This document shows positions 1 to 35,575 of a stretch of 37,448 nt of DNA, in pieces. The translations under genes were made by a program, and so were the position numbers. Location of the stretch: positions 1 through 37,448 of the IMG/VR virus record IMGVR_UViG_3300028835_001459. One strand, given 5' to 3'. This DNA comes from a virus. Position 1 is the first letter of the stretch. Each line of letters opens with the position of its first letter. Below the pieces are notes generated by a model. It searched no databases. It was not told the DNA's origin and worked only from the letters and a program-made list of their open reading frames with translations.

Positions 1-177
1 GGTCCGCCATATTATCGTTACGTTGGATATGATGAGACATTTAAAACAATACAATGGATTTCTGAAGAAGAGCTTTTTTATAACAATTTAATTAAGCAGA
101 TAAAATTTTACAAGACAAAAATTTTACAGCTTATTAAGACGTTAGACATAAACAATATATGGGCGCATATAAAATAA
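1..177 (+). CDS. Partial cassette ORF, C-terminal part only
   Basis: One frame is open from the first base to a TAA at 175-177 and reads through the attC site at 78-147. The upstream part has protein-like composition (for example VGYDETFKTIQWISEEEL), so the gene probably belongs to the cassette that ends in that attC. Another frame ends earlier, at 89-91, and cannot be excluded. The start lies outside the window. I do not recognise a family. Confidence 0.35.
   Translation, partial: GPPYYRYVGYDETFKTIQWISEEELFYNNLIKQIKFYKTKILQLIKTLDINNIWAHIK
78..147 (+). other. attC recombination site 1
   Basis: Left box TTATAAC at 78-84 and right box GTTAGAC at 141-147, a perfect GTTRRRY. Between them the arm at 93-109 pairs with 117-133, except for an extra unpaired A in the left arm, as in integron attC sites. 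It is the first of the left-hand array. Confidence 0.85.
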
Positions 178-404
178 CCGAAATAGAAGAAGATTTCAAT
201 AAAACCATTAAAGAAGCAGGAAATAATTATATTTTCGAGCACATGAAAATTATTGCTAAGAAGATACTGAAGGATTTTCCCGACAATCAAGAAAGAGACA
301 TCGCTATTTCTAAATTATTAGAGTCAGCATTGTTTGTTAAATTTTGTCTCATAAAAGAGGCGCTAAAAATGTCTAACAATTTAATAAAGCAGACCAAAAA
401 ATAA
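159..404 (+). CDS. Acb2/Tad1 hairpin-domain protein, candidate cyclic-nucleotide sponge
   Basis: 81 aa. Residues about 29-66 match the helical hairpin of the Acb2/Tad1 family (DUF7681): a helix, then FPDNQERDIAISKLLESAL, then a second helix. The family signature is roughly CPDSRExxxAxxKLxEAxMWA. Known members bind cyclic oligonucleotides or glycocyclic-ADPR signals and so block CBASS or Thoeris immunity. The ATG is 12 nt after the attC right box at 141-147, and the stop lies inside the next attC (371-438), which is typical of a cassette gene. There is no clear Shine-Dalgarno. The usual Cys-Pro and Met-Trp positions are replaced (Phe-Pro, Leu-Phe), so ligand binding is uncertain. The family call is from memory of the motif. 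Confidence 0.6.
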   Translation: MGAYKITEIEEDFNKTIKEAGNNYIFEHMKIIAKKILKDFPDNQERDIAISKLLESALFVKFCLIKEALKMSNNLIKQTKK

Positions 405-438
405 AAGCGCTTTTTGGCTGCTTATTATGTCGTTATAA
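371..438 (+). other. attC recombination site 2
   Basis: Left box GTCTAAC (371-377), right box GTTATAA (432-438). Left arm AAGCAGACCAAAAA pairs with right arm TTTTTGGCTGCTT, leaving one extra A in the left arm. This is the same layout as classic attC sites. It belongs to the sequence family with an AAGCxGaCCAAAA arm, shared with 11876, 13862 and 15022. Confidence 0.9.
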
Positions 439-459
439 AGAATTTTATTCGGAGAAATT

Positions 460-645
460 ATGTCCTGTAAATGTGAGCCGTGTAGCGAGTGTGAGGGTGA
501 TGGATATGTATGGTGGACTTTCGACCGAAAGAAGTATCTAAAGAAACATCGTTGTGACGATCTTGATGTAATGGACTCTTGTGATGATTGCGGAGGGGCA
601 GGCTTAGATGAAATGTGTGACGAATGCACGGAAGATAATTTATAA
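460..645 (+). CDS. DnaJ-type zinc-binding small protein
   Basis: 61 aa and acidic. It has CxxC pairs: CEPC then CSECEGDG near the N-terminus, and CDDCGGAG then CDEC near the C-terminus. CxxCxGxG motifs are those of the DnaJ central zinc domain, which binds two zinc ions. A GGAG lies 5-9 nt before the ATG. It is the single gene of the cassette between the attC sites at 371-438 and 640-709; its TAA overlaps the left box of the latter. Role unknown; a protein-binding zinc finger is the most that can be said. Confidence 0.65.
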   Translation: MSCKCEPCSECEGDGYVWWTFDRKKYLKKHRCDDLDVMDSCDDCGGAGLDEMCDECTEDNL

Positions 646-709
646 TTAGGCATTTGAGCTAGATCAAAAACGATGAAGCTGTTTTTGACTACTCAACTTT
701 GTGTTATAA
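640..709 (+). other. attC recombination site 3
   Basis: Left box TTATAAT (640-646, one mismatch to the consensus AAC), right box GTTATAA (703-709). Arm 654-670 pairs with 682-696 and has two extra bases, C and A, in the left arm only. The last bases of the upstream gene (TAA) form part of the left box. Confidence 0.85.
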
Positions 710-2885: not shown

Positions 2886-2995
2886 TTTTTAGCAGGTTAC
2901 AAAAAAAGAGGTTAGAGCGCATCTAATAGCATGACCTTTAATTCGTTTTTAAATCATAATGTTAAAGGAAAGTCTTAATTGTGAAAAGCCAGCCC

Positions 2996-3108
2996 TGTGG
3001 ATAACTCCCTAATTTGGCCTAAATTTTCCCTAAATTCCACCTTTAAAAGCAAAAACAAAAAAGTTATCCACAGACTTATCCACAGACTTATCCACAGCCT
3101 GTGGATGG
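2996..3108. other. DnaA-box cluster, origin-like
   Basis: Perfect 9-mer DnaA boxes: TGTGGATAA (2996-3004, reverse) and TTATCCACA at 3064-3072, 3076-3084 and 3088-3096, the last three at an exact 12-bp period. A near-match, TGTGGATGG, is at 3100-3108. An AT-rich tract with direct repeats lies to the left and a DnaA domain IV gene to the right. This is the layout of a DnaA-dependent replication origin, but no replication data are available. Confidence 0.8.
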
Positions 3109-3118
3109 GTCTACTTAA

Positions 3119-3349
3119 CTAGTGTATATCTTGTGGGTTAAGATATCTCATGATTGTGGAGTGGTCTCTTTTCCCAAAGATTATTCCTAGCTCGCAGAGG
3201 GATAATTCTGTAAACACCCGGCATCTTTGAATTGCGTGTTTACGAGCTTCTAGAACGGTTTTTGAGCGTCCTTTGCCTGTAATTTTTTTAACAGGAACGT
3301 CAAATTCTTTTGATACTTGTTCGATAATAATTTTGGCTTGGGAAAACAT
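3119..3349 (-). CDS. Stand-alone DnaA domain IV (DnaA-box binding) protein
   Basis: 76 aa, minus strand. It matches the C-terminal helix-turn-helix domain of DnaA: VPVKKITGKGRSKTVLEARK, then ELGIIFGKRDHSTIMR, which corresponds to the DnaA signature around GxRDHxTV/I. The AAA+ ATPase domains are absent, so it could bind DnaA boxes but not open an origin alone. GGAGGTGG lies just upstream of the start (complement of 3354-3362). It sits between the DnaA-box cluster (2996-3108) and one more box (3426-3434). It may act as an origin adaptor, a competitor of host DnaA, or an autoregulator. Confidence 0.88.
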   Translation of the reverse strand: MFSQAKIIIEQVSKEFDVPVKKITGKGRSKTVLEARKHAIQRCRVFTELSLCELGIIFGKRDHSTIMRYLNPQDIH

Positions 3350-3425
3350 TTAACCACCTCCTTTTCTAATAAATTTAAAATCCTACATTAACAGGTTATC
3401 ATGGTTAAAGCAACAAAAAATCGAG

Positions 3426-3434
3426 TTATCCACA
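3426..3434 (+). promoter_or_regulatory. Isolated DnaA box upstream of the DnaA domain IV gene
   Basis: Perfect TTATCCACA, 77 bp upstream of the minus-strand start at 3349. In this position it could serve autoregulation as well as origin function. Confidence 0.7.
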
Positions 3435-3503
3435 GGGCCTACTACTACTTCTAGATCTCTCTATTAACATAGTTATTGGATAACAAAAGGCAATAGGTTC
3501 GAC

Positions 3504-4470: not shown

Positions 4471-4941
4471 ATGAACAAAAAACCAACTAAATTAAAAATA
4501 TTACAGGGCAATCCGGGGAAAAGACCTCTTCCTATAGAACCGCATCCTAAAGAAATCATGCCTAGAATGCCCAAGGAAATCGACAGGGAGGCTAAGAAGG
4601 CATGGAAGGCCTTAGCGCCTACCTTGGTTAAGTTAGGCCTCCTGTGCGAAACGGATGGCCTCTCCTTTGGTTTCTTGTGTCAATTACGCAGCCGGTTAAA
4701 AGAATGCATAGAGAAAACCAATAGCCTGTCGAGCTTAATTGATGAAAAATCATATATCGATAAAATAGGCGAAGAGCATATTACCTGTAGAATAAATGCG
4801 TATGTATTGGCCGAGGAAAGGTTTTTTAAATTGTTTAGGGCTTATGCCGCCGATTTTGGCCTTACACCAAAAGGCCGTACAGGATTAGGTATTGACCTTA
4901 CCGGCACAAAGGCAGGCTCTTTGGAGGGGTTGCTTGATTAA
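4471..4941 (+). CDS. terS: Terminase small subunit, P27 family
   Basis: 156 aa. The N-terminus LKILQGNPGKRPLPIEPHPK is the P27-family signature. A helical DNA-binding core and a conserved middle (AWKALAPTLVKLGLLCETDG) follow. It recognises the packaging site and hands DNA to the large subunit. Its stop codon overlaps the terL start by one base, so the two are translationally coupled. Confidence 0.9.
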   Translation: MNKKPTKLKILQGNPGKRPLPIEPHPKEIMPRMPKEIDREAKKAWKALAPTLVKLGLLCETDGLSFGFLCQLRSRLKECIEKTNSLSSLIDEKSYIDKIGEEHITCRINAYVLAEERFFKLFRAYAADFGLTPKGRTGLGIDLTGTKAGSLEGLLD

Positions 4942-6500
4942 TGCCATTTGTAATAGAAAAGGCCGAAAGAGTAAAAAAATTCATAGAATGCCTTAAACAC
5001 ACTAAAGGACAATGGGCAGGTAAGCCGTTCAAATTAATAGAATGGGAATGGGAGGAAGTGATAAAGCCCCTCTTTGGGACTCTCAAAGAGGATGGTTTTA
5101 GACAATATAGATTCTGCTATATAGAGATACCTAAAAAAAATGGGAAGTCCGAGCTAGGCGCTGGTGTGACTTTATATATGCTGACTGCGGATGGTGAAGC
5201 AAGCCCTGAAGTCTACGGGGCCGCTGCGGATAGAAATCAGGCAGGTTTAATCTATAATATTGCGTCTATTATGGTGATGAACGATGAGGTGTTGTCAAAG
5301 AATCTGGAGATAACCAGGTCTTTGAAACGCATGATGTATTATCGGAATAATGGATTTTATCAAGTTTTATCTAGCGATGTAAAAACCAAACACGGGCTAA
5401 ATCCCTCGGCGGTAATTTTTGATGAGCTTCATTCACAGCCGAACGACCAGTTGTGGCGAGTGTTAACGAGTGGTACGGCTTATGCCCGCCAACAACAAGT
5501 TGTTTTTGTAATGACAACCGCAGGGATCTTTGATAAAAATAGTATATGGTGGAAAATCAGAGAAAAGGCTAGGCAGGTTAAAGCTGGTATTATTAAAGAC
5601 CCTGAATTTCTTGCGGTTTTATATGTTGCGGATCCGGAAGAGGATGATCCGGAAGATGAAGAATTATGGAAAAGAGTCAATCCCTCCTTAGGGCATATAT
5701 TTACTTTAGATAAAGTTCGGGCAGATTATGATCAGGCGAAGAATAATCCGGTAGACTGGGCTGATTTCTGTAGGTATAGACTTAACATCCCGGCAAAACA
5801 TATCAAGAGGTGGATGCCGATGAGAAAATGGGATGCCTGTGAAGGAACAAAAGAAGATTTTATACCTGAAAATCTATTAGGGCGTACATGCGCAGGTGGG
5901 GTGGACCTTTCATCCACTCAAGATTTAACAGGGTTTTTATTGGTCTTCCCGCCTCTTGAAGAGGAAGGTTCATGGATAATATTAACTCATGCATATTGCC
6001 CTGAAGATACGATCACAGAAAGGTCAAGGCAAGATAATGTTAAATATGATATTTGGGCAAAACAAGGATTAATAACTCCCACGCCCGGTGATTATATTGA
6101 CTACGCTTATGTGAAAAGGGATATTGTAAAGGCTGCTGATTTATATGACTTACAAGAAGTGGGCTATGACCCATGGAACGCCTCACAACTTGCAGGCGAA
6201 TTATTTAATGAAGAAGGTATTAAGATGATAGAAATGAGACAAGGTACAAAAACATTATCCGAGCCGGCTAAGGATATACTAACAAAAACATTAGCAGGAA
6301 AAATATCACATAACGGACACGCTATTTTGCGATGGTGCGCCGATAATGTGGTGATGGTACCTGACGCCAATGAAAACATTCGTCCTGCTAAAGATAAGGC
6401 GGTAGAACGTATTGATCTTTTTGTCGCATTAATAATGGCATGGGGAAGGGCTATATATCTCAATCAATATTACGGAGGGGGGGTAACTGTTCTTGAGTAA
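4941..6500 (+). CDS. terL: Terminase large subunit, Terminase_1 (HK97/P27-associated) type
   Basis: 519 aa, complete. ATPase: Walker A variant IPKKNGKSE at about residues 63-71, Walker B AVIFDE at 157-162, coupling motif TTAG at 192-195. The nuclease domain starts with the first acidic motif GGVDLSSTQD at about 319-328, with later acidic residues around VGYDPWNA. It cuts concatemers and drives DNA into the prohead. Unusually, it is followed by a 9.4-kb accessory block rather than by portal. Confidence 0.95.
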   Translation: MPFVIEKAERVKKFIECLKHTKGQWAGKPFKLIEWEWEEVIKPLFGTLKEDGFRQYRFCYIEIPKKNGKSELGAGVTLYMLTADGEASPEVYGAAADRNQAGLIYNIASIMVMNDEVLSKNLEITRSLKRMMYYRNNGFYQVLSSDVKTKHGLNPSAVIFDELHSQPNDQLWRVLTSGTAYARQQQVVFVMTTAGIFDKNSIWWKIREKARQVKAGIIKDPEFLAVLYVADPEEDDPEDEELWKRVNPSLGHIFTLDKVRADYDQAKNNPVDWADFCRYRLNIPAKHIKRWMPMRKWDACEGTKEDFIPENLLGRTCAGGVDLSSTQDLTGFLLVFPPLEEEGSWIILTHAYCPEDTITERSRQDNVKYDIWAKQGLITPTPGDYIDYAYVKRDIVKAADLYDLQEVGYDPWNASQLAGELFNEEGIKMIEMRQGTKTLSEPAKDILTKTLAGKISHNGHAILRWCADNVVMVPDANENIRPAKDKAVERIDLFVALIMAWGRAIYLNQYYGGGVTVLE

Positions 6501-7551
6501 TAGATTCTTTAACATAGACAATCGGACGATTAATGAAAACTCTAGACCTTATATTATTGCAGAGATAGGGCATAATCATGGGGGTAGTGTAGAAAAGTGT
6601 AAAGATTTAATCTCTTTAGCTAAAGAATGTAATTGTGATGCAGTTAAATTACAGAAAAGGGATAATAAATCCCTTTATACCGAAGCGCTATATAACTCTC
6701 CATATGAGAATATTCATTCATTTGGACGAACATATGGTGAGCACAGAGAAGCGCTGGAATTTAATTTCAATGAATATAGAGAGATAATTAGGCATGCAGA
6801 TTTTTTAGGAATATTCATATTTGCCACTGCGTTTGACATAAAATCCGTAGATGTTTTATGTTACTTAAACATAAAAGCTATTAAAATTGCGTCCGGCGAT
6901 ATTAGAAATACTCCATTGATAAGTTATGCAGCTAAACAACGGATTCCGTTAATAATCAGTACAGGTGGCGCAGATTATGGCGACATAGCGGACGCTGTTG
7001 AGTATGTGGAAAGACATCATAAAAATTATGCGCTACTGCATTGCGTAGCCACATATCCGAATTATCCTCAAGAATTAAATCTAAAGGTTATTGAAAAATT
7101 AAAGATTTTTAATCCTGGAACAATCATCGGCTTTTCATCCCATTATGATGGTGTTTTGGCTGGTATCTGCGCCTTTAATCATGGAGCGCAAATAATTGAA
7201 TATCATTTTACCGATAGTCATGTAAATAAAGGCAGTGACCATGCGTTAAGTTTACAGCCTCAAGGGATGAAAAAATTAACCGGTCATTTAAAGCATGCAT
7301 ATATGATGCGCGGCGGAGGTTTTAAAGAAAGATTAGATAGGGAAGATAAAGCGCTTTATAAGATGGAAAAATCAATTTATCTCAAAAAAGCCAAGCCAGC
7401 GGGATATAAAATAAAAGAAGAGGATTTGGTTTTTAAAAGCCCAGGAGGCGGCCTCCCACCGGCAAGGGCACAGGAAGTAATAGGACAAACATTAGGGGCG
7501 TCACTAACTGTTAATACGCCTTTGCTATGGGACTATTTAATAAAACCTTAA
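6493..7551 (+). CDS. neuB: NeuB-type nonulosonate (sialic/legionaminic/pseudaminic acid) synthase
   Basis: 352 aa. It starts with TTG at 6493 behind GGAGGGGGG and overlaps the terL stop. The N-terminal TIM-barrel domain has PYIIAEIGHNHGGS (about 19-32), DAVKLQKRD (about 50-58) and the conserved IKIASGD. The C-terminal SAF (antifreeze-like) domain covers about 285-350 (SIYLKKAKPAGYKIKEEDL). The family condenses phosphoenolpyruvate with a hexosamine derivative to a nine-carbon sugar acid. Which of the sugars is made cannot be told. Works with the SDR at 8206 and the cytidylyltransferase at 9557. Confidence 0.9.
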   Translation: MSNRFFNIDNRTINENSRPYIIAEIGHNHGGSVEKCKDLISLAKECNCDAVKLQKRDNKSLYTEALYNSPYENIHSFGRTYGEHREALEFNFNEYREIIRHADFLGIFIFATAFDIKSVDVLCYLNIKAIKIASGDIRNTPLISYAAKQRIPLIISTGGADYGDIADAVEYVERHHKNYALLHCVATYPNYPQELNLKVIEKLKIFNPGTIIGFSSHYDGVLAGICAFNHGAQIIEYHFTDSHVNKGSDHALSLQPQGMKKLTGHLKHAYMMRGGGFKERLDREDKALYKMEKSIYLKKAKPAGYKIKEEDLVFKSPGGGLPPARAQEVIGQTLGASLTVNTPLLWDYLIKP

Positions 7552-7593
7552 CTTAACTATTTGTAATAATTTATTGCTAAGGAGGCAAATATT

Positions 7594-7785
7594 ATGGAGA
7601 TAAGAAGAATAGAGCTACTAAAAGCTTCAGCACTCGGGATGAATAGAACTTTCACTAACTTAGGAGAAGCGTTCGATGCTCTTTGTGGAATCGTTAAAGA
7701 CCTAGGAGTTGAATTGAATAAAATTCAAGACGAACTTAATGGTCAAGCCACATGTGACATGGAGCAAAATGAAAGGAATCCCTAA
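7594..7785 (+). CDS. Hypothetical protein, 63 aa
   Basis: AAGGAGG precedes the ATG. One long amphipathic helix is likely (FDALCGIVKDLGVELNKIQD). It ends in the left box of a truncated attC (7780-7819), so it may once have been cassette cargo. No family recognised. Confidence 0.55.
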   Translation: MEIRRIELLKASALGMNRTFTNLGEAFDALCGIVKDLGVELNKIQDELNGQATCDMEQNERNP

Positions 7786-7819
7786 CAAAACAATCAACTA
7801 GACAAAATTATTGTTATAA
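7780..7819 (+). other. Truncated attC-like site
   Basis: CCCTAAC (7780-7786) and GTTATAA (7813-7819) resemble the two outer boxes, and CAACTAGAC between them resembles the left arm of other sites here. The right arm is missing, leaving 40 nt. A deletion remnant of an attC is the best reading. Confidence 0.45.
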
Positions 7820-7827
7820 ATAAAAGG

Positions 7828-8049
7828 ATGGGGATGAAGTATCGAATTGTAGAAAAAGATTTAGGAGATGAGATAAGATTTTACATTCAATGGAGATTCC
7901 TGTGGATATTTTGGTTAGAGATTGTTGATTCCATTGATACTAATGTTAACTATAGTTCCTACGATAAATGTAAAGAATGGATAGAAAAAGACATAGAAAC
8001 ACGGTTAAAGCATAAAAATAAAGCTAAAACTAAAATACATAATTTATAA
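7828..8049 (+). CDS. Hypothetical cassette protein, 73 aa
   Basis: AAAAGGAT overlaps the start region; ATG at 7828, or at 7834. The sequence is aromatic-rich (FYIQWRFLWIFWLEIVDSID) with a basic lysine tail. The TAA lies in the left box of the attC at 8044-8115, and a truncated attC precedes the gene. Together they frame a single-gene cassette. The Trp-rich stretch might touch a membrane. No family recognised. Confidence 0.6.
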   Translation: MGMKYRIVEKDLGDEIRFYIQWRFLWIFWLEIVDSIDTNVNYSSYDKCKEWIEKDIETRLKHKNKAKTKIHNL

Positions 8050-8115
8050 CAAGTCATTTCACGCAGTAAGTAGGTTTGAGAAGCAGCCTACTTACTGGTG
8101 AATTTGTCGTTATAC
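8044..8115 (+). other. attC recombination site in the sugar module
   Basis: Left box TTATAAC (8044-8050), right box GTTATAC (8109-8115). Left arm TTCACGCAGTAAGTAGG pairs with right arm CCTACTTACTGGTGAA, with one extra G in the left arm. A very clean site. Confidence 0.88.
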
Positions 8116-8121
8116 ATAATT

Positions 8122-8205
8122 ATGAAATGTGATTGGGATATTTGCGAATACGAAGACTGGTTAGACTGCAAAGAATGTATCCATTTTAAAACGAAAGGAG
8201 GTTGT
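8122..8205 (+). other. In-frame Cys-rich N-terminal extension of the SDR (possible)
   Basis: ATG 8122 is 6 nt after an attC right box and in frame with the SDR. It encodes MKCDWDICEYEDWLDCKECI followed by HFKTKGGC. Five Cys in 28 residues could bind metal. It may be the remains of a cassette ORF fused to the SDR, or it may be untranslated. The strong Shine-Dalgarno favours the start at 8206. Confidence 0.3.
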
Positions 8206-8898
8206 ATGAATTTGAAAGGTAAGGTGGCGTTAATAACGGGCACTATAGGAAATATTGGGCCTATTTGGGTTGAAGCATTAAAAGAGAAGGGCTGTAAAGT
8301 TGTTGAATTAAATAACGACATTGATGTTAGCTCACGGTATAAAGTTAATTGTTTTTTTGAAGAGATGTTTTACAATAAAAGCTTAGGGCTAGACATCGTT
8401 GTTAATAATGCCGCGATAGATAATCCTCCTGTTGATCAGGGAGGATTTTTTGACAAAGCATTAGAGATAATAAATGTTAATCTCTTTGGCGCTGTTAATA
8501 TATCCAGAAAGGCAGTGCCGCTAATGAAGAAAACAGGCGGTGGGGTGATAATTAACATCGGTTCGATTTTAGGTAACGTGGCTGCGGATTGGCGAAACTA
8601 CGATGCGTATTTTGAAAAACCCGTTGCTTATAATGTTAGTAAAGCAGGTTTGATCCAGTTAACAAGGTCGCTTGCAGTTCAGTACGCACGAGACAATATC
8701 AGGTCTGTTTGCATATCGTTTGCGGCTGTGGATACGGGAAAATTCACAGACCCGTTTAGCAGTAAATTTAAAAGCTGTCTTCCCTTGGGTAAGTTTATCT
8801 CAAGAGAATCATTAAAAAAGACATTGTTATATGCCTGTGAATGTGATGAGCTAACAGGAACACAGATACTAGTAGACTCCGGTTACACGAGTTGGTAA
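8206..8898 (+). CDS. Short-chain dehydrogenase/reductase of the nonulosonate module
   Basis: 230 aa from ATG 8206, chosen because GAAAGGAGG lies 5-13 nt upstream. Rossmann motif TGTIGNIG at about 10-17 (TGxxxGxG), NNAA at about 66-69, active Ser in INIGSILG, and YNVSK (YxxxK) at about 145-149, so NAD(P)-dependent catalysis is expected. SDRs of the PtmA type occur next to NeuB and NeuA homologues in legionaminic-acid and flagellin-glycan loci, which fits the context. The frame is open upstream to ATG 8122, giving a possible Cys-rich 28-residue extension. Follows an attC directly. Confidence 0.85.
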   Translation: MNLKGKVALITGTIGNIGPIWVEALKEKGCKVVELNNDIDVSSRYKVNCFFEEMFYNKSLGLDIVVNNAAIDNPPVDQGGFFDKALEIINVNLFGAVNISRKAVPLMKKTGGGVIINIGSILGNVAADWRNYDAYFEKPVAYNVSKAGLIQLTRSLAVQYARDNIRSVCISFAAVDTGKFTDPFSSKFKSCLPLGKFISRESLKKTLLYACECDELTGTQILVDSGYTSW

Positions 8899-8921
8899 AT
8901 TATTGTTAGGGAGGGTAAACA

Positions 8922-9257
8922 ATGGGCAGATTAACACCCTATTCCGAGTACATTCGTATTAGAGAAGAAGGCGAACTAAAGGGTGCAGTGTCAAAGTTGA
9001 CGAATCAATTAAAGGCAGTAAACGCTAGACACGCAAGAGCTTGCGAAAGAGTAAAAACTCTTAGATTCAGGTTAATCCCGCAGAGGTATAGCAGACTATC
9101 GGAAATGTTAGAAAGGAAGGCTGCGCTAAGAAGAAGCATAAAGAGATTACAAGGGGCCAAAGCAAGGCTAGTGGTTCAGATAGGGAGCACTGAGCGTAAG
9201 TGTTTAAGCGTTGTAGGATTAGAGAGGCGTCTTCTAAAACAAATAGCTAAGCGTTAA
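8922..9257 (+). CDS. Basic coiled-coil protein, 111 aa
   Basis: GGGAGGG precedes the ATG. The protein is nearly all helix and very rich in Arg and Lys, with heptad-like spacing (for example EGELKGAVSKLTNQLKAVNA). No enzyme motif. It could be a nucleic-acid-binding or scaffold protein. It sits inside the sugar module. No family recognised. Confidence 0.6.
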   Translation: MGRLTPYSEYIRIREEGELKGAVSKLTNQLKAVNARHARACERVKTLRFRLIPQRYSRLSEMLERKAALRRSIKRLQGAKARLVVQIGSTERKCLSVVGLERRLLKQIAKR

Positions 9258-9284
9258 TTATAAAAAACTTAAAAGGAGGAAATC

Positions 9285-9557
9285 ATGAAACCTAATTTTA
9301 TCAAAAAGAGAAATGCAAAAAAAAAATTAACTAAGTCGGCTAATCAGCCAAAAGTGGCAACTGAACAAACGCCTGTAGAACAAGATATTTTAAAATCTCT
9401 TGAAGAGATTAAAAAAGGAAGCCCTGCTATTGTATTCTGTGAGATGCCAGGGAAAGGGCTAACAATGCATATTCAAAAACTAGGGATTTATCCTGCTTTA
9501 GGTATATTGGAAACTCATTTAAGGATATTGTACGGTACGGTAAAAGAAGGTAAATAA
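9285..9557 (+). CDS. Hypothetical protein, 90 aa
   Basis: AAAGGAGG precedes the ATG. The N-terminus is lysine-rich and probably disordered (residues 1-30). The rest has a short beta/alpha pattern (SPAIVFCEMPGKGLTMHIQK). Its stop overlaps the start of the cytidylyltransferase by one base, so the two are coupled. No family recognised. Confidence 0.6.
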   Translation: MKPNFIKKRNAKKKLTKSANQPKVATEQTPVEQDILKSLEEIKKGSPAIVFCEMPGKGLTMHIQKLGIYPALGILETHLRILYGTVKEGK

Positions 9558-10285
9558 TGCTATATGCCTTTATTCCCGCACGAGCGGGGTCAAAAAGGAT
9601 TGCGAATAAAAATTTTAAAAGATTAAGCTCTAAGAGTTTAATTATTTACACCATAGAGGCAGCCGTTAAGGCTAAAATATTTGACCAGATATATATATCT
9701 AGTGACGATAAGGTTTGTGCAAATATTGCTAAGAAGTATAACATTAAGTTTGTTAAACGGCCTCAGTGTCTTGCCGGTGATACTTCACCCGATGTCGGGT
9801 GGATAGAGCATTTATTATCAGGGATTAATCAATGTGATAAAAACAGTTATTTTATGATATTGCGCCCTACAAATCCATTTAGAACTTCAAGAACGATTAT
9901 AAGGGCATTAGATAAATTTAATCTTGCGAATATAGCTTCAAAGACTATGTATACAGGGTTAAAATCTATTCAAAAAATTACCGAGCGCCCGGAAAAAATG
10001 TGGAGAGTTACGCCTTCTGGTGATTTGTCATCTTATCAGCCGAATCAATTTTTAGGCATAATTCCCCAATACGAGGCACAAAGCTATGTGTTTCAAGAGT
10101 TATATATTCAGAATGGTTGTATAGATTTATGCAGTATCGAGAATCTGGACTGCAGCGCTAGTTATTTGGGACCAAAAATTAAGGTTTTTTTTACAAAAGG
10201 GTATGAAGGCTTCGACATTAACGAGCCACATGATTGGGATTATGCCGAATATCTCTTAAAAAAAGGAATATTAAATGGATATTAA
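9557..10285 (+). CDS. neuA: NeuA-type CMP-nonulosonate cytidylyltransferase
   Basis: 242 aa. N-terminal IPARAGSKRIANKN (residues 6-19) is the signature of N-acylneuraminate cytidylyltransferases. DQIYISSDD and LRPTNPFR follow as in the family, and the C-terminus has GFDINEPHDWDYAEYLL. It would activate the NeuB product with CTP to give a CMP-sugar. No glycosyltransferase is seen in the window, so transfer would rely on the host or on genes outside. Overlaps the FkbM gene by 11 nt. Confidence 0.9.
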   Translation: MLYAFIPARAGSKRIANKNFKRLSSKSLIIYTIEAAVKAKIFDQIYISSDDKVCANIAKKYNIKFVKRPQCLAGDTSPDVGWIEHLLSGINQCDKNSYFMILRPTNPFRTSRTIIRALDKFNLANIASKTMYTGLKSIQKITERPEKMWRVTPSGDLSSYQPNQFLGIIPQYEAQSYVFQELYIQNGCIDLCSIENLDCSASYLGPKIKVFFTKGYEGFDINEPHDWDYAEYLLKKGILNGY

Positions 10286-11003
10286 AGGACTTAATTTACC
10301 ATTTAAATTAAGTATAACTACTGAAACGGAACAATGGCGGGCTGAGACTTTTTGGGACAAAGAGCCGGAAACGCTAAAATGGATAAACCAATTTAACAAC
10401 ACAGGACTTTTTGTTGATATAGGGGCTAATATAGGTTTGTATTCTCTTTATGCAGCGGCAAAACACCCTGACTTAACGATAATTTCAATAGAGCCTCAAC
10501 TGGAAAACTATATTTCCTTATGTCTAAATGTTTACAGGAACAATTATTATAATATTATCCCTCATTATTTAGCGGTTGGCGACACTGATGAACTATCAAT
10601 CTTTACGCAACAATATAATGTTGCAGGGGCTACCGGCGGGTTTTTTTGCTCTCCGAACGATAAGGATAATATACGGGATTTTAAAAAGCATTGGTATAGT
10701 AGATTAATTCTACAAAGAAGATTAGACAGTCTATTCTCCCTCCTTTTTGGGGGGAGGCACACTTATTTAAAAATAGATACGGATGCAAACGAAAAAAAGA
10801 TTATAAACGGGGCAAATAACTTTATAAAAAAAACAACTGAAATATTAATCGAAGTAAATAATGAAAACAGACAATATATTATTACACAGATAAAAGAAAA
10901 GGGATTCACGGAACACGATTTAAATTGGATATCTCCTCATTCAAGACAACGAAGAAACAGAGAAAACAGTAAAGTTGAGAACATAATATTTAAAAAGATT
11001 TAA
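10275..11003 (+). CDS. FkbM family SAM-dependent methyltransferase
   Basis: 242 aa. The SAM-binding loop FVDIGANIGLYSLYAA lies at about 46-61, then IISIEPQLENYISL (acidic motif after strand 2) and later YLKIDTDANEKKII, the FkbM arrangement. FkbM enzymes O-methylate sugars and other small molecules. Being coupled to the cytidylyltransferase suggests methylation of the nonulosonate or its glycan. Complete; the last gene of the sugar operon. Confidence 0.85.
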   Translation: MDIKGLNLPFKLSITTETEQWRAETFWDKEPETLKWINQFNNTGLFVDIGANIGLYSLYAAAKHPDLTIISIEPQLENYISLCLNVYRNNYYNIIPHYLAVGDTDELSIFTQQYNVAGATGGFFCSPNDKDNIRDFKKHWYSRLILQRRLDSLFSLLFGGRHTYLKIDTDANEKKIINGANNFIKKTTEILIEVNNENRQYIITQIKEKGFTEHDLNWISPHSRQRRNRENSKVENIIFKKI

Positions 11004-11343: not shown

Positions 11344-11569
11344 ATGATACTTGATACAGATACAGAACAATTCAAAGAGGACAGTGAAAATATCGGAAAA
11401 AACATGGAGAAAGGACATGCTTATCATTGTGCGTGTAGGCTTGTATGGGGAGATGGTGAGTGAATGTGAGCTTAAAAGGAGGTCACCGCCAAGCATATCA
11501 CAGCAAGTATTAGGTGCAACATGTCCAGCAGGATCAAGGTATGGGCTTATAAAGAGAGGCAATTTATAA
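11344..11569 (+). pseudogene. Frameshifted copy of the gene at 15402
   Basis: ATG 11344 behind AAGGAG gives 39 codons to TGA 11461-11463. The beginning (MILDTDTEQ) and the middle (GHAYHCACRLVWGDGE) match the protein at 15402 (MILNTEAEG, GHIHACACRIVYGDGE). The match resumes in another frame as ECELKRR (against ECRLKER), ending at 11567-11569. A 2-bp loss in a TGTG stretch near 11460 explains the shift. The stop overlaps the left box of the next attC. Confidence 0.65.
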
Positions 11570-11664
11570 CCAAACGCTCCACTTGACCAGTTGGCCTGAA
11601 CCGATCCTAGTACAGAGCTAGACTTAGAGGGCAGGCCAACTGGCAAGTGAGCTTTACGTTAAAA
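11564..11664 (+). other. attC recombination site, 101 nt
   Basis: Boxes TTATAAC (11564-11570) and GTTAAAA (11658-11664). Left arm GCTCCACTTGACCAGTTGG continues CCTG and pairs with the arm at 11631-11652, with two extra bases (C, A) in the left arm. The longest site of the array, with a 39-nt loop. Confidence 0.88.
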
Positions 11665-11898
11665 CCCTCGGGCGCTCAATTTTTATGTCATAGCACAGAA
11701 AGATATGCGATTGGTCTCAAAAATAATTTTGGTAAATATCCTATTGTTTTAAATAAAAATAATCTTAGTGCTCTCCGTAATATGACGGCTTTATATAATT
11801 GGGACATATATGAAAAGTTAATAAATTTAATTGAAAGGCATGGAACAATATTAATATTGAAAGAGAATAAAGAAAATCTAACAAATAAATCAAGCTGA
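11647..11898 (+). CDS. Hypothetical cassette protein, start uncertain
   Basis: Up to 83 aa if started at GTG 11647, which lies within the right arm of the attC. No ATG is available in frame. The protein-like region is RYAIGLKNNFGKYPIVLNKN, then a helix ending in INLIERHGTILILKENKENL. The last residues are encoded by the attC at 11876. No family recognised. Confidence 0.5.
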   Translation: MSFTLKPSGAQFLCHSTERYAIGLKNNFGKYPIVLNKNNLSALRNMTALYNWDIYEKLINLIERHGTILILKENKENLTNKSS

Positions 11899-11943
11899 CC
11901 AAAAGGATGAGGCATCTTTTGGCAGCTTATTGTGCCGTTATAA
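11876..11943 (+). other. attC recombination site
   Basis: Boxes ATCTAAC (11876-11882) and GTTATAA (11937-11943). AAGCTGACCAAAAG pairs with CTTTTGGCAGCTT, with one extra A in the left arm. Confidence 0.9.
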
Positions 11944-11946
11944 ATA

Positions 11947-12150
11947 ATGAAAGGTATATCAATAGAAGCTATAAATATAATTCAAAAATTAATATCTAAA
12001 GGTTTTGATTATACATCTAGTCGTGATGGACATACTTATTGTTTCTATTGTGATGGACACTGCACTTATAAACCTATGCATGAAAGAGATTGCATTTATA
12101 TTATTGCAAAGGAATTTATAACCCAATATTCGACTAGACCGACATCCTAA
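11947..12150 (+). CDS. Hypothetical cassette protein with Cys/His cluster
   Basis: 67 aa, ATG 3 nt after the attC right box and no Shine-Dalgarno. DGHTYCFYCDGHCTYKPMHE then RDC gives four Cys and three His in about 25 residues, a likely zinc site. The last nine residues and the stop come from the downstream attC (12116-12202). No family recognised. Confidence 0.6.
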   Translation: MKGISIEAINIIQKLISKGFDYTSSRDGHTYCFYCDGHCTYKPMHERDCIYIIAKEFITQYSTRPTS

Positions 12151-12202
12151 GGGATCAATCCCTGTGGAGCGACTCAGTCAGCTAGTCAAATCTTTGTTAT
12201 AT
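12116..12202 (+). other. attC recombination site
   Basis: Boxes TTATAAC (12116-12122) and GTTATAT (12196-12202). TTCGACTAGACCGAC pairs with GTCAGCTAGTCAAA, with an extra A in the left arm and two mismatched pairs. The loop holds its own small hairpin, GGGAT-CA-ATCCC. Confidence 0.88.
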
Positions 12203-12204
12203 TG

Positions 12205-12447
12205 ATGAAAATATTTAAACGAACTTTTATATTCCCAATATTAATACATAAAACTGAGTCAATGCCCGAAAAAAAACCAAATATTAGCATTCGATGGGAT
12301 AAATCTGGAACGGCTGGAACTATGAAAACTACATCGTATACATTAGAAATAATCGTAAAGAAGAAAAAAACGCAATGGACTTTTTGTTGGAGGCCGGACG
12401 TCACTAAATATTATTGGGGAAAAAAATATAACAAAACAATAGACTAG
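12205..12447 (+). CDS. Hypothetical cassette protein, 80 aa
   Basis: ATG 12205 is 2 nt after the attC right box; TTG 12202 is an alternative. The protein is basic and beta-rich (TTSYTLEIIVKKKKTQWTFC), with a WDKSGTAGT turn. It ends at the TAG inside the next attC. No family recognised. Confidence 0.55.
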   Translation: MKIFKRTFIFPILIHKTESMPEKKPNISIRWDKSGTAGTMKTTSYTLEIIVKKKKTQWTFCWRPDVTKYYWGKKYNKTID

Positions 12448-12492
12448 ATAAAAAATAAAAAGCATTTTTTACTAGTCATTTTGTCGTTATAT
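12426..12492 (+). other. attC recombination site
   Basis: Boxes ATATAAC (12426-12432) and GTTATAT (12486-12492). GACTAGATAAAAAAT pairs with ATTTTTTACTAGTC perfectly except for one extra A in the left arm. Confidence 0.9.
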
Positions 12493-12514
12493 TGAAAAAA
12501 TAGAAAGATATAAT

Positions 12515-12727
12515 ATGAAAGCATGGATTTCTCCTACAGCAAAAAAAATATTATTAAATCCTTATTCTCGCGAACAGCTAGAAAAATTTATAGGATCGAG
12601 AAAGAAAGAAGGAAAAATAATTCTTAATAAGACAGAATATAAAATAACACGGAGCACGGAGCGGCTAAAAGAGCAATATAACAAATCATTGAACTTGACC
12701 GAGGGAAAAGCACCCTCGGCAAGTTAA
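12515..12727 (+). CDS. Hypothetical cassette protein, 70 aa
   Basis: Lysine-rich, with a helix around SREQLEKFIGSRKKEGKI and a short strand pair after it. AGAAAG precedes the ATG weakly. The last 14 residues (from NKSLNLTEG) are encoded by attC sequence. No family recognised. Confidence 0.55.
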   Translation: MKAWISPTAKKILLNPYSREQLEKFIGSRKKEGKIILNKTEYKITRSTERLKEQYNKSLNLTEGKAPSAS

Positions 12728-12740
12728 TTCAGCGTTATAA
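12676..12740 (+). other. attC recombination site
   Basis: Boxes ATATAAC (12676-12682) and GTTATAA (12734-12740). AACTTGACCGAGGG pairs with CCCTCGGCAAGTT, with one extra A in the left arm and a loop of 7 nt. One of the cleanest sites. Confidence 0.92.
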
Positions 12741-12748
12741 ATAATATT

Positions 12749-12886
12749 ATGTTTAAAGTAATTAAAAAAAATACTGACGGGGAAATATTAGAAATAATTT
12801 TAAATTCTGAAAAAGAATTGTTAAAACATTTAGACGGCATGTTTACTTGGACAGATCATAAATTAATTGCCGTAATTCATTTATAA
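12749..12886 (+). CDS. Hypothetical cassette protein, 45 aa
   Basis: ATG 8 nt after the attC right box; TAA falls in the left box of the next attC. The product starts MFKVIKKNTDGEILEIILNS and ends HKLIAVIHL, an alternating strand-helix-strand pattern. It fills its cassette exactly, which supports a real gene despite the length. No family recognised. Confidence 0.55.
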   Translation: MFKVIKKNTDGEILEIILNSEKELLKHLDGMFTWTDHKLIAVIHL

Positions 12887-12966
12887 CCAATCCTTGGACT
12901 AGACCGACATCACTGGGGATTAAGATATCGGAGCGACTCAGTCGGCTAGTCAATTCTATGTTAGAT
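12881..12966 (+). other. attC recombination site
   Basis: Boxes TTATAAC (12881-12887) and GTTAGAT (12960-12966, perfect GTTRRRY). TTGGACTAGACCGAC pairs with GTCGGCTAGTCAA, with extra G and A in the left arm. Confidence 0.92.
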
Positions 12967-13078
12967 TGAATTAATTAGAGGACGCATTACGTCTGCCCAT
13001 GGGCAGTATGTTAATGTATTGCTTGATAAAGAAGAAAAACCAAGGCGTTATCATCATGGGACGCTAAGATACCTATAA
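12965..13078 (+). CDS. Possible 37-aa cassette protein, non-AUG start
   Basis: A frame from ATT 12965 to TAA 13076-13078 gives RGRITSAHGQYVNVLLDKEE and a His/Arg-rich end. It fills this very short cassette, and its stop is in the next attC left box, as in neighbours. An ATG at 13003 in another frame is less protein-like. Weak. Confidence 0.3.
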   Translation: MELIRGRITSAHGQYVNVLLDKEEKPRRYHHGTLRYL

Positions 13079-13144
13079 CCAAGCAATCCACTTGATCGCT
13101 AGGCTTGAGAAACAGCCTATCGTTAAGTGATTTTCACGTTAGGT
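13073..13144 (+). other. attC recombination site
   Basis: Boxes CTATAAC (13073-13079) and GTTAGGT (13138-13144, perfect). CACTTGATCGCTAGGC pairs with GCCTATCGTTAAGTG, with one extra base and two mismatches in the left arm. Confidence 0.85.
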
Positions 13145-13291
13145 GCCTTGACGGGGGTACTGAAAGTAGTTGTAAATACTATATTCTTTTTCCGGTAAAA
13201 AAATATAGCAGACAACTAAACTCAGACACCAGATTCAATAATGACGATTATTGTGATCTGTGAGGAGGCTTTTTGTGCCCCACGTGAAGAC
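13145..13291 (+). other. Non-coding cassette, possibly an RNA gene or promoter cassette
   Basis: No open frame longer than about 18 codons. A promoter-like pair, TTGACG (13148-13153) and TGTAAA after 17 bp, is present. Two hairpins follow: TATATTCTTTTT pairing with the A-rich TATA end, and CAATAAT-GACG-ATTATTG. Cassettes without ORFs are known in integrons. I do not recognise the RNA. Confidence 0.4.
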
Positions 13292-13358
13292 ACCTAACAA
13301 GTCAGTGTAGCCGACAAAGGCTACACAACAGCCTTTGCGGCTAACTTCTGCGTTATGT
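13292..13358 (+). other. attC recombination site
   Basis: Boxes ACCTAAC (13292-13298, perfect RYYYAAC) and GTTATGT (13352-13358). AGCCGACAAAGGC pairs with GCCTTTGCGGCT, with one extra A in the left arm. Confidence 0.92.
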
Positions 13359-13594
13359 GGGAAATTAAATCTATTAGAGATGATAGTTACAGCACAGAAT
13401 GTATTATCCGTCCTATATATGCAATTGAAATAAAAACCAAGAAAAGGCGATATCGCATAGGATGGATGGCAAACTGTGGAACATTAACAGGTAATCCTTG
13501 GTATGGTAAAATAGGTCATTTAAAATATGACCATTTAAACGGTTATTTTAAAATACGGATATTGTGGCTTGCTTTCGCATGGTTAGCCACATAA
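13355..13594 (+). CDS. Hypothetical cassette protein, 79 aa
   Basis: The ATG lies inside the attC right box (GTTATGT), so the recombination site supplies the start codon. The protein is basic and beta-rich (YAIEIKTKKRRYRIGWMANC), then WYGKIGHLKYDHL and a hydrophobic end (ILWLAFAWLAT). TAA is in the left box of the next attC. No family recognised. Confidence 0.6.
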   Translation: MWEIKSIRDDSYSTECIIRPIYAIEIKTKKRRYRIGWMANCGTLTGNPWYGKIGHLKYDHLNGYFKIRILWLAFAWLAT

Positions 13595-13673
13595 CAAACC
13601 ATTCGACTAGACCGAATCCAAGGATATTGGTTAATTCAACGGGATGTGTCGGCTAGTCAATTTATCGTTAGAC
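13589..13673 (+). other. attC recombination site
   Basis: Boxes ACATAAC (13589-13595) and GTTAGAC (13667-13673, perfect). TTCGACTAGACCGA pairs with TCGGCTAGTCAA, with extra C and A in the left arm. Confidence 0.92.
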
Positions 13674-13682
13674 ACACTGGAC

Positions 13683-13874
13683 ATGAAAACATTTTATAAT
13701 ATTGTTATTGGGATAGGATTTATTTCCGACATATGGTTATTTAATTTATTTTGGCTTATGGTAGATATGCCGCTTAAATTCAAAATTATTTCTACGCTTG
13801 CATGGCTTCTTAGTCATTTGGGATGTTATGCTTGGCGGGATAAAAAACACGATGGTTTAATGTCTAACAATTAA
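13683..13874 (+). CDS. Small membrane protein, cassette-borne
   Basis: 63 aa. Two predicted membrane segments: residues about 5-26 (FYNIVIGIGFISDIWLFNLF) and about 33-51 (IISTLAWLLSHLGCYAW). The C-terminus is charged (RDKKHDG). ATG is 9 nt after the attC right box. An upstream in-frame start at 13644 lies within the attC and is unlikely. No family recognised; two-segment membrane proteins are common cassette products. Confidence 0.65.
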   Translation: MKTFYNIVIGIGFISDIWLFNLFWLMVDMPLKFKIISTLAWLLSHLGCYAWRDKKHDGLMSNN

Positions 13875-13926
13875 ATGAAGCTGACCAAAATAAAAAGCAT
13901 TTTGGCAGCTTATTAATCGGCTAGGG
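13862..13926 (+). other. attC recombination site with damaged right box
   Basis: Left box GTCTAAC (13862-13868). AAGCTGACCAAAA pairs with TTTTGGCAGCTT, with one extra A. The right box is GCTAGGG (13920-13926), a T to C change at the second position of GTT, which should hinder cutting and might freeze the next cassette in place. Confidence 0.8.
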
Positions 13927-13936
13927 AGAAAAAAAT

Positions 13937-14167
13937 ATGCTTGAGCTCGGAACAGTTTTAATGTATGGGGTGGATTCTGACGAGGGGTTTACAAAAGAGG
14001 AAATAGAAGAAATCGTAACTGTTAGACTAGCATCGAAAGAAGTTCAATTGTATAAATTAACAGGGGGCGAAGTCTTCCAAAGAGAAGATGTCTTAATGAA
14101 GCAAGCAACGCACGCTTTGCATGTCGAAAAACTCTCTAACAAATCAACGGACGCAGTAAAAACCTAA
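13937..14167 (+). CDS. Hypothetical cassette protein, 76 aa
   Basis: GGGAG precedes the ATG. Acidic, with a helix GFTKEEIEEIVTVRLASKEV and a strand-helix after it (VQLYKLTGGEVFQREDVLMK). The last dozen residues are encoded by the attC at 14134. No family recognised. Confidence 0.6.
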   Translation: MLELGTVLMYGVDSDEGFTKEEIEEIVTVRLASKEVQLYKLTGGEVFQREDVLMKQATHALHVEKLSNKSTDAVKT

Positions 14168-14211
14168 CGATAAAGCTGCTTAGGCTTTTACTGGTCGTTT
14201 CTGCGTTATAT
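14134..14211 (+). other. attC recombination site
   Basis: Boxes CTCTAAC (14134-14140) and GTTATAT (14205-14211). AACGGACGCAGTAAAAACC then TAA pairs with TTAGGCTTTTACTGGTCGTT, with extra bases in the left arm and a few mismatches. Confidence 0.85.
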
Positions 14212-14230
14212 TAAGTTAGGATTGTTTGAT

Positions 14231-14740
14231 ATGGAGTATTTAAAATTACTTGAGCATAGTTATAAAGTTTGTTGTGACGATGAGGAAGAAATAACCCGTT
14301 TAGAATTTCTTGCTTTACATGTTTTTAATTTTACCACCTATGATGGTTGTATAGATGAATTATTTGCAAAGAAGGCTTTAGAAGTTTGCTCTGCAATAAA
14401 CAATAGAGAAACATTTAAATATCATAACGATAACGAAAATTATGTATGGTATTTACTTCTGTGTAATATGCCATTTTTTATAGATAAATTGGAATGGGGG
14501 ACATCTATAAGGGGTGCGTGGTGGGATCATAAAGAATTTAAAATTTCATCTTGTGGTTTTTGGGAAAAAGATGAGCAAATAGATGAGTTAAGGTTTAATA
14601 CCACGCAATGGTATTCATTTATTAAAGCAATGGAAGGTTTTATTGCAATTGATAAAGAATATAACCCACCAATGCACTTGCCAGCAACCCTGCCGATAAA
14701 GCTGGCAGTGTCGCTGGCAAGTGATTTCTACGTTATATAG
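14231..14740 (+). CDS. Hypothetical cassette protein, 169 aa
   Basis: The largest cassette product. Start ATG 14231 with TTAGG about 10 nt upstream; TTG 14222 is possible. It is acidic and aromatic (YLKLLEHSYKVCCDDEEEI, WYLLLCNMPFFIDKLEWGT, RGAWWDHKEFKISSCGFW). It reads through the whole downstream attC (14659-14738), so about its last 27 residues are attC-encoded and the TAG is built from the right box. No family recognised. Confidence 0.65.
   Translation: MEYLKLLEHSYKVCCDDEEEITRLEFLALHVFNFTTYDGCIDELFAKKALEVCSAINNRETFKYHNDNENYVWYLLLCNMPFFIDKLEWGTSIRGAWWDHKEFKISSCGFWEKDEQIDELRFNTTQWYSFIKAMEGFIAIDKEYNPPMHLPATLPIKLAVSLASDFYVI
14659..14738 (+). other. attC recombination site
   Basis: Boxes ATATAAC (14659-14665) and GTTATAT (14732-14738). 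CACTTGCCAGCAACCCTGCC pairs with GGCAGTGTCGCTGGCAAGTG with two mismatches and no clear extra base, unlike its neighbours. Confidence 0.8.
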
Positions 14741-14764
14741 AAAATAAAAAAAGGAGTATTAAAA

Positions 14765-15019
14765 ATGAATACCTTAAACAAGATTAAAGCAAAGCCTCCA
14801 GTTCCGGAAGAGGAAAATATTCTTGGTTTAACCGATCAAGAACAAAAAGTCCTTGATAAATTAATGGAGAGTTATCAAATTTTTTTAGACATTCCTACTG
14901 AACATCCGGAAGAAAAACGTGAATTTGGCTATGCCGTTCATTTAATTCAAGGTTTACTTACAACAAGAATAGCAAGAAGATGTTATCCTAGCGGATGGCC
15001 GACATATCTTGTGAAATAA
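14765..15019 (+). CDS. Hypothetical cassette protein, 84 aa
   Basis: AAAAAAAGGAG precedes the ATG. A helix LTDQEQKVLDKLMESYQIFL, then a Pro-His turn (PTEHPEEKREFGYAVHLIQG) and an Arg-rich end (TTRIARRCYPSGWP). The pattern resembles small hypothetical proteins seen in phages, but I cannot name a family. Ends just before an attC. Confidence 0.6.
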   Translation: MNTLNKIKAKPPVPEEENILGLTDQEQKVLDKLMESYQIFLDIPTEHPEEKREFGYAVHLIQGLLTTRIARRCYPSGWPTYLVK

Positions 15020-15021
15020 AA

Positions 15022-15083
15022 GAATATTAAATCAAGCTGACCAAAAGGAGATGGCATTTTGGCAACTTATTAATCGGTTATAT
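15022..15083 (+). other. attC recombination site, last of the array
   Basis: AAGCTGACCAAAA pairs with TTTTGGCAACTT, with one extra A and one mismatch. Right box GTTATAT (15077-15083). The left box is degraded (ATATTAA around 15024-15030). Confidence 0.8.
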
Positions 15084-15099: not shown

Positions 15100-15405
15100 A
15101 TGACTTTACGCCAAAAACAATCAGTTTTTGCTCACAAATTACCACTTCTCATATTATATGCATATGAATTAGGATATGAGATTACCTTTGAAGACTTTAC
15201 CTCAAAAACGGGGCATAAGAGGGGATCATTCCATAAGAAAAAATTAGCAGCGGATCTCAACCTTTTCCGCAGCGGACACTATTTGCGAAGTACTAAAGCG
15301 CACAAACCTTTAGGCCTCTTTTGGGAGTCGATCGGTGGCACATGGGGCGGACGATGGAAGGACGGGAATCATTATAGTTGGGGAGAGAGGTCCGGTACCG
15401 GATGA
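15100..15405 (+). CDS. M15-family peptidase, probable endolysin or peptidoglycan carboxypeptidase
   Basis: 101 aa. GSFHKKKLAADLNLF (His and Asp zinc ligands of the SxHxxGxAxD type) and WESIGGTWGGRWKDGNHYSW (second His) are the M15 D-Ala-D-Ala/L,D-carboxypeptidase motifs. The N-terminal TLRQKQSVFAHKLPLLILYA helix is typical of short phage members. It would cut the peptidoglycan stem or cross-link, probably in lysis. No signal peptide. It follows the last attC at 17 nt but no attC follows it, so it may be a core phage gene. Overlaps the next gene by ATGA. Confidence 0.85.
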   Translation: MTLRQKQSVFAHKLPLLILYAYELGYEITFEDFTSKTGHKRGSFHKKKLAADLNLFRSGHYLRSTKAHKPLGLFWESIGGTWGGRWKDGNHYSWGERSGTG

Positions 15406-15791
15406 TTTTAAACACAGAGGCAGAGGGCGAAAGAGCAACAGGAAATATGCATACGCATCTGGGGCAAGGGCATATTCATGCTTGCGCATGTAGGATCGTG
15501 TATGGTGATGGTGAATGTGAATGTCGCCTTAAAGAAAGACAACAGGCGGATATGCCATGTCCGCCCCGAGGAACATTACAAGCAACTCAAAAAGAATATA
15601 AAATATTAGAAAATACCCTTACGGATATCTTAAATAATTTAGAGGCAATAGCACATCCAAAAGTAGAATACAGAGAAGAGACTTCTCAAATGGCTAATGA
15701 AGCCATACAAGAAATGCAGAAAAGAGCTTTTGTGATATTAGAAATAATAAAGACTAATGTTTTAGCCAACAAAAACCGCATTAAAATATAA
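15402..15791 (+). CDS. Hypothetical protein with Cys/His-rich N-terminus, intact paralogue of 11344
   Basis: 129 aa from ATG 15402, which overlaps the peptidase stop (ATGA). The N-terminal part MHTHLGQGHIHACACRIVYG then DGECEC has five His and four Cys, a likely metal site. The C-terminal half is helical (TLTDILNNLEAIAHPKVEYR onward). A frameshifted relative is the first cassette of the array. No family recognised. Confidence 0.65.
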   Translation: MILNTEAEGERATGNMHTHLGQGHIHACACRIVYGDGECECRLKERQQADMPCPPRGTLQATQKEYKILENTLTDILNNLEAIAHPKVEYREETSQMANEAIQEMQKRAFVILEIIKTNVLANKNRIKI

Positions 15792-23898: not shown

Positions 23899-23910
23899 AT
23901 ATAAAAAAGG

Positions 23911-24126
23911 ATGGTACGTCTGTTTATTGTCAAAAGCGGGAGTGGATATTTTATAAAATTTATAAGGGATCAGCCTTATTGTGTTAGCGATCCTCTTTTA
24001 GCAACTAGACTTGACCTAGGGAAAGCAAATAAAACTATACGGAAGCTAAATAATCTCGGCTTTGGCACAGAGTTGGTTAAGCTTAAGTTTAGTCAAAGGT
24101 CTTTGGCGATAATTAATATTAAATAA
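23911..24126 (+). CDS. Hypothetical protein between the two tail tube genes
   Basis: 71 aa, basic. VRLFIVKSGSGYFIKFIRDQ forms a strand pair, then a helix-strand. No family recognised. The start has only AAAAAGG upstream. Confidence 0.5.
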   Translation: MVRLFIVKSGSGYFIKFIRDQPYCVSDPLLATRLDLGKANKTIRKLNNLGFGTELVKLKFSQRSLAIINIK

Positions 24127-24165
24127 ATAATGAGTTTTTAAATAATTAACAAAGGAGGTGATGTT

Positions 24166-34565: not shown

Positions 34566-34576
34566 GAGATTTTAAC

Positions 34577-35572: not shown

Positions 35573-35575
35573 TAT

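Follow-up and report, generated by a model that had tools for sequence, protein, structure and literature searches.

Integrons are known to store the resistance genes and antiphage genes of bacteria. Clusters of attC sites lacking integron integrases (CALINs) are also known from phages, namely, Tetrasphaera phage TJE1, Pseudoalteromonas phage H101/PH101, and Polaribacter phage P12002L (Qi et al. 2023, PMC9892861). The attC sites of TJE1, of which three were reported, recombine with IntI1 (PMC9892861). So far, phage-borne cassette clusters have been reported as short. On bacterial chromosomes, sedentary integrons have been described as stores of antiphage defense genes (Darracq et al. 2025, as cited in PMC13064858).

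Here, we analyzed the linear 37,448-bp IMG/VR virus record IMGVR_UViG_3300028835_001459, a tailed-phage contig, and refer to this whole stretch as the window. It carries at least 17 genuine attC sites, only two of which had been seen in the first-pass annotation. As in the phage CALINs described previously (PMC9892861), attC sites bound short cassettes of one direction in a phage genome that has no integrase. In contrast to the three sites of TJE1 (PMC9892861), the sites of the present phage stand in three places: three at 1-709, a single site at 8044-8115, and a group of thirteen at 11564-15083, all on the plus strand. The second and third groups lie between the genes for the terminase large subunit (4941-6500, plus strand; phrog_9, E 2e-157), upstream of the 8- to 15-kb cassette region, and the portal protein (15927-17300, plus strand; phrog_12, E 4e-103), downstream of it. 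This is the packaging module, and phage genes flank the region on both sides. The CALIN is far longer than that of TJE1 and is placed partly inside the packaging module. The array also differs from the earlier phage CALINs (PMC9892861) in its cargo, which, as read from the sequence, includes a counter-defense candidate, phage-family genes, and a tRNA-like gene. A search with PF00589 found no integron integrase or other recombinase of the phage-integrase family in the record, which may be a fragment; the cluster is therefore classed as a CALIN and not as a complete integron, which comprises intI and attI.

The likeness to the sedentary chromosomal integrons, as these are presented in PMC13064858, is that arms-race genes are kept as integron cassettes; there, they are bacterial defense genes on bacterial chromosomes, whereas here a candidate counter-defense gene lies in a phage. 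A literature search of incomplete coverage returned no earlier report of a phage in which an anti-defense candidate forms an integron cassette. Because its 17 or more attC sites, one group of which lies within the packaging module, bound phage-type and possibly counter-defense cargo, such a phage would permit a direct test of whether phages reshuffle anti-defense genes by means of the integron integrase of the host.

attC sites and cassette junctions

The three attC-like sites of the left end were first noticed as homologous repeats. A structural scanner, which required R'' and R' boxes and a stem whose 5' arm has exactly two bases more than the 3' arm, returned about 15 convincing sites in the window, all on the plus strand. 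At stems of at least 17 bp, it found 10 plus-strand sites in the window; 449 kb of Markov null sequence yielded 3, none of which reached an 18-bp stem. Furthermore, an attC covariance model built from 14 sites showed compensatory changes in 13 of its 20 pairs, with conserved two-bulge hairpins, and scored 17 window sites at 40 to 76 bits, three of them outside the training set. Applied to other phages, the same model detected sites in TJE1 (43 bits, E 4e-7) as well as the VCR-type sites that Vibrio phage p16 carries in its integron; no attC was returned from 50 kb of T4 or from the surroundings of 80 unrelated Acb2 genes, which together make up 243 kb. Chance is excluded as the source of the attC sites in the window. 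Their RYYYAAC and GTTRRRY boxes bound an imperfect hairpin in which the central spacer is unpaired and one arm has extra bases, and some R' boxes (GTTATAA, GTTATAT) depart from strict GTTRRRY.

At the left end, attC-A occupies 78-147 (R'' TTATAAC; R' GTTAGAC at 141-147; 19-bp stem with two extra 5'-arm bases; 63.2 bits, E 9e-13), attC-B occupies 371-438 (R'' GTCTAAC at 371-377; R' GTTATAA; 18-bp stem with two extra 5'-arm bases; 70.3 bits, E 1.6e-14), and attC-C occupies 640-709 (54 bits). The site at 8044-8115 scores 64 bits. The array between 11564 and 15083 opens with a site at 11564-11664 (50.6 bits, outside the training set), the R' of which is damaged in the window. It continues with sites at 11876-11943 (72.9 bits), 12116-12202 (40.8 bits, outside the training set), 12426-12492 (76 bits), 12676-12740 (72.2 bits), 12881-12966 (60.7 bits), 13073-13144 (59.9 bits), 13292-13358 (67.8 bits), 13589-13673 (62.3 bits), 13862-13926 (45.4 bits, outside the training set), 14134-14211 (62.3 bits), and 14659-14738 (52 bits), and its last site is at 15018-15083 (51.7 bits). 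The degenerate R' at 13862-13926 (GCTAGGG) or the degenerate R'' at 15018-15083 would, in either case, block or bias recombination.

The arrangement of the boxes provides a separate view of these sites, as the R' that starts a cassette must pair with the R'' of the cassette's own attC when the cassette is circularized. Of 14 junctions, 10 obey this rule at each of the four variable positions, and nine of these match at 7/7; none of 100,000 permutations attained this number, and the site at 12116-12202 agrees at 7/7 on both sides. Within one array site, R'' and R' match in only 3 of 17 cases. The exceptions to the rule include the junctions from 12966 to 13073 (5/7), from 13926 to 14134 (5/7, with the degenerate R'), and from 14738 to 15018 (3/7). 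An eleventh junction is regained in an otherwise identical second contig, in which the R' of the 11564 site is intact (GTTAGAT) and complements the next R'', ATCTAAC. The window thus holds attC-bounded cassettes in a phage genome, arranged as integron recombination leaves them.

The cassette under study spans 291 bp at 142-432 on the plus strand, from the TT of the attC-A R' to the G of the attC-B R', according to the cut between G and TT. Its starting GTTAGAC is the exact reverse complement of its own R'', GTCTAAC (7/7). The proposal that a gene is packaged here as a cassette between two attC sites is therefore strongly supported; the limits first given for it, 148-438, are six bases off. To its left lies a truncated cassette (1-141, plus strand) that is cut by the window edge, and a frame at 1-175, open at that edge, crosses attC-A and reaches past the start codon of the single ORF of the 291-bp cassette.

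The 81-residue ORF and the Acb2/Tad1 family

This sole ORF (159-404, plus strand) encodes 81 aa; among Markov-shuffled versions of the cassette, 0.09% contain an ORF of at least this length. Its residues 71-81 (MSNNLIKQTKK) are encoded by attC-B, and no SD-like motif precedes it. tblastn searches of phages, viral contigs, and genome contigs returned no useful homologues, which leaves selection on the ORF unsupported by the viral and genome collections. Neither in these collections nor among public phages was a second phage with the cassette found, and a sequence search of the PDB with the 81-aa protein gave no match.

The first-pass annotation had proposed the ORF as a candidate member of the cyclic-nucleotide sponge family of Acb2 and Tad1. 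Members of this family (PF24729; among them, the Acb2 proteins T4 Vs.4 and PaMx33 p26) are small phage proteins of two long antiparallel helices, with an N-terminal I-E..F and a P-D turn followed by E-[RK]..A..[KT]L..A, and the predicted 81-aa protein resembles them in these respects. It differs in that it falls under the Pfam cut-off and has Phe at the positions of the family Arg and Trp and no His. The ORF had no Pfam match at E ≤ 1; the PF24729 cut-off is 27 bits, and the T4 Vs.4 control reached 70 bits. In the whole record, the only PF24729 match was to another gene, at 1903-2115 on the plus strand (match at 1945-2103, 38.1 to 38.7 bits), which is the Acb2/Tad1 hairpin gene of this genome and lies outside any cassette. 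This gene escapes ordinary ORF calling. It has a GGAGG-like motif and no ATG, GTG, or TTG start at its 5' end, and its start is possibly ATT or a damaged start codon.

In BLASTP, the 81-aa ORF and the 1903-2115 protein formed an ungapped alignment of 37 residues with 30% identity (single-comparison E 5e-5), and this match spans the turn motif PDxxER..A..KL. Against home-made family profiles, the ORF scored 10.6 to 15.1 bits (single-comparison E 1e-6 to 2.5e-5). With profiles of 11 to 12 phage family members, its scores of 11.0 to 15.1 bits were attained by none of 5,000 shuffles, and with larger profiles (10.6 to 13.3 bits) by 0 to 4 of 10,000. The reversed sequence gave about 1 bit with the larger profiles, and the maximum among 899 unrelated ORFs, 6.7 bits, stayed below the ORF. 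T4 Vs.4, a known Acb2, scored 12.8 to 15.0 bits with T4 left out of the profile, just above the 81-aa ORF; with a profile of 92 sequences, the values were 12.9 to 13.3 bits for the ORF, 6.2 for the next unrelated ORF, and 15.0 for T4 Vs.4. With hhalign, the ORF obtained P values of 0.001 to 0.002, T4 Vs.4 one of 4e-6, and other proteins of the window values of 0.04 to 0.5.

A fold other than a helical hairpin had been named in advance as contrary evidence, and the single-sequence AlphaFold2 model predicts a two-helix hairpin with antiparallel helices at 6-39 and 43-80 and a turn at F40-P41-D42, which is a common fold. A separate model of the 1903-2115 paralogue, made in the same way, has its turn at C37-P38-D39, at the same aligned P-D motif. 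VIA aligned the ORF model with CmTad1 at Z 5.9 over 49 residues and with unrelated helical chains at 6.0 to 6.7. With Foldseek, CbTad1 was matched at E 9.8, and Tad1 chains did not rank above unrelated helical proteins; the fold matches in BFVD included many proteins named Acb2/Tad1 hairpin, all at E > 1. This kind of search is insensitive for the Acb2/Tad1 hairpin, because even the model of the genuine paralogue, for which T4 Vs.4 is the top-ranked match, reaches an E of only 1.3 with it. Among the conserved family positions, Ile, Phe, Ala, Pro, and Leu are kept in the ORF, the invariant Arg before the helix-1 core and the Trp are each replaced by Phe, and the His is absent; Phe likewise stands in place of the Trp in 9ptq, an Acb2 homologue of solved structure. 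Since the ORF stays below the Pfam cut-off, lacks family residues, and is not separated by the fold searches, we do not file it under PF24729.

Two readings of these data have to be weighed. The product of the genuine cassette could be an unrelated small helical protein that has converged on a common two-helix hairpin, which we consider less likely than not. It would agree with the lack of a Pfam match, the absence of conserved residues on the ligand side, a CmTad1 Z score below those of unrelated helical chains, and the nature of cassette cargo, which typically consists of small unassignable proteins, as in the majority of the other cassettes here. Against convergence, the profile score of the ORF exceeds those of all unrelated ORFs and approaches that of T4 Vs.4, reversal of the sequence lowers it to about 1 bit, and the turn motif lies within the ungapped alignment. 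On balance, the placement in the sponge family remains suggestive: profile scores, hhalign, and the P-D turn speak for it, and the Pfam score and the missing Arg, His, and Trp speak against it. We consider a distant relationship of the 81-aa protein to Acb2/Tad1 rather probable. That it binds an immune signal, as would follow by analogy with the family, is a more tentative proposal, which we consider somewhat unlikely; a sponge of this kind would be a hexamer with affinity for cyclic nucleotides or gcADPR.

Possible mobility and integrity of the cassette array

We judge the evidence to be about evenly balanced for the reading of the locus as a whole, namely, an integron cassette in a phage CALIN that encodes a probable distant Acb2/Tad1 relative, most likely with a role in counter-defense. 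Under such a scheme, the folded bottom strands of the attC sites would be recombined by an integron integrase that comes either from the host or from a part of the phage genome that has not been sequenced, and cassettes would in this way be excised, inserted, or reordered. The 81-aa hairpin would most likely be a small counter-defense protein, and perhaps, with less certainty, a sponge that sequesters a cyclic-nucleotide alarm signal as Acb2 and Tad1 do. The clear Acb2/Tad1 gene already present at 1903-2115 counts against this explanation. By inference, integron recombination could carry anti-defense genes from one phage to another. The broader proposal, that phages store small counter-defense genes, including an Acb2/Tad1-like sponge, as attC-bounded cassettes and swap them through the integrases of integron-bearing hosts, mirroring the defense cassettes of chromosomal integrons, is at present unlikely.

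The array might also be a frozen relic, in which cassettes of a bacterial chromosomal integron were captured once by a phage and are now immobile, their attC sites in decay and most of their cargo silent. The window without an integrase, the degenerate boxes at 1011-1079, 13862-13926, and 15018-15083, and the missing SD-like motif would fit such an origin. The same holds for the database searches, in which the 1.2-kb left end and the 11.6- to 15.1-kb array had no nucleotide match among public phages, and the latter had none among plasmids. However, most R'' and R' boxes are still exact across the junctions and the stems are intact, as expected for recently functional sites, and part of the cargo is phage-type. 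We regard a relic as somewhat unlikely.

The second contig, IMGVR_UViG_3300024432_000061 (G001), is 100% identical to the window over 25,787 bp and has the same right end, and the identity begins at the 11662 junction, covers the array, and continues into the portal, capsid, and tail genes. At the start of G001, in the 11564 attC, stand 46 bp that the window lacks at 11661/11662 (region 11556-11662) and by which the R' of that site is regained. An assembly artefact that fused a bacterial cassette array to a phage contig is highly improbable, since, even if cassette arrays are difficult to assemble and G001 breaks at the 11564 attC with its 46-bp difference, the identity of the two contigs extends from the array into structural phage genes, and the cassettes stand in three separate places, between which phage genes lie.

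Other cassettes and genes of the record

Beyond the focal cassette, the cargo is varied. The next cassette (433-703, plus strand), delimited by the box rule and the ORF list, holds a 61-aa Cys-rich ORF at 460-645. It is followed by a plus-strand cassette at 704-1079 that ends in an additional, degenerate attC at 1011-1079 (26.2 bits, E 0.0013) and contains a tRNA-Ser(UGA)-like gene at 719-802, found by ARAGORN at a low threshold and scored by the Rfam tRNA-Sec model at 34.9 bits, below the gathering score. The CCA of this gene is encoded, and from 805 onwards there is a second tRNA-like 5' half, which has an anticodon like that of Ser GCU and lacks a clear T-arm. Near the end of the array, the plus-strand cassette at 14206-14732 carries an ORF of phrog_18399 (E 9e-46), with 44% identity to Vibrio phages, and that at 14733-15077, also on the plus strand, carries one matching phrog_13916 and phrog_21487 (E 1e-12). 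Most other cassettes encode small proteins that could not be assigned.

The relatives of the terminase share 55 to 60% identity with it, and the flank of the longer one is unlike the present genome. Matches of a 23-nt attC pattern in GTDB genomes were mostly to gammaproteobacterial MAGs, with one Omnitrophota, one Leptospirales, and one lactobacillus, a signal too weak for naming a host. A PADLOC scan found nothing.

Between the terminase and portal genes, the stretch at 6493-11003 encodes NeuB, a short-chain dehydrogenase, a CMP-sugar-type cytidylyltransferase, and an FkbM methyltransferase, a set that possibly represents an acidic-sugar pathway in the phage. The DnaA-box-like sequence TTATCCACAG is repeated at 2992-3112 and 3405-3438, around a minus-strand gene (3119-3349) for a lone DnaA C-terminal domain, and the repeats and this gene could form a phage origin or a DnaA decoy. 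Tail-type genes are duplicated in tandem at 23482-24828 and 34535-36571, with 85% identity over 184 bp at 23546/24449 and repeats at 35472/36468. Finally, the motif GH.H.CACR.V.GDGECEC is common to the 11351-11569 part of the cassette region and to the ORF at 15378-15791 just before the portal gene; the latter is out of frame with an upstream M15-peptidase-like ORF, and the pair may be a duplicated or frameshifted gene.
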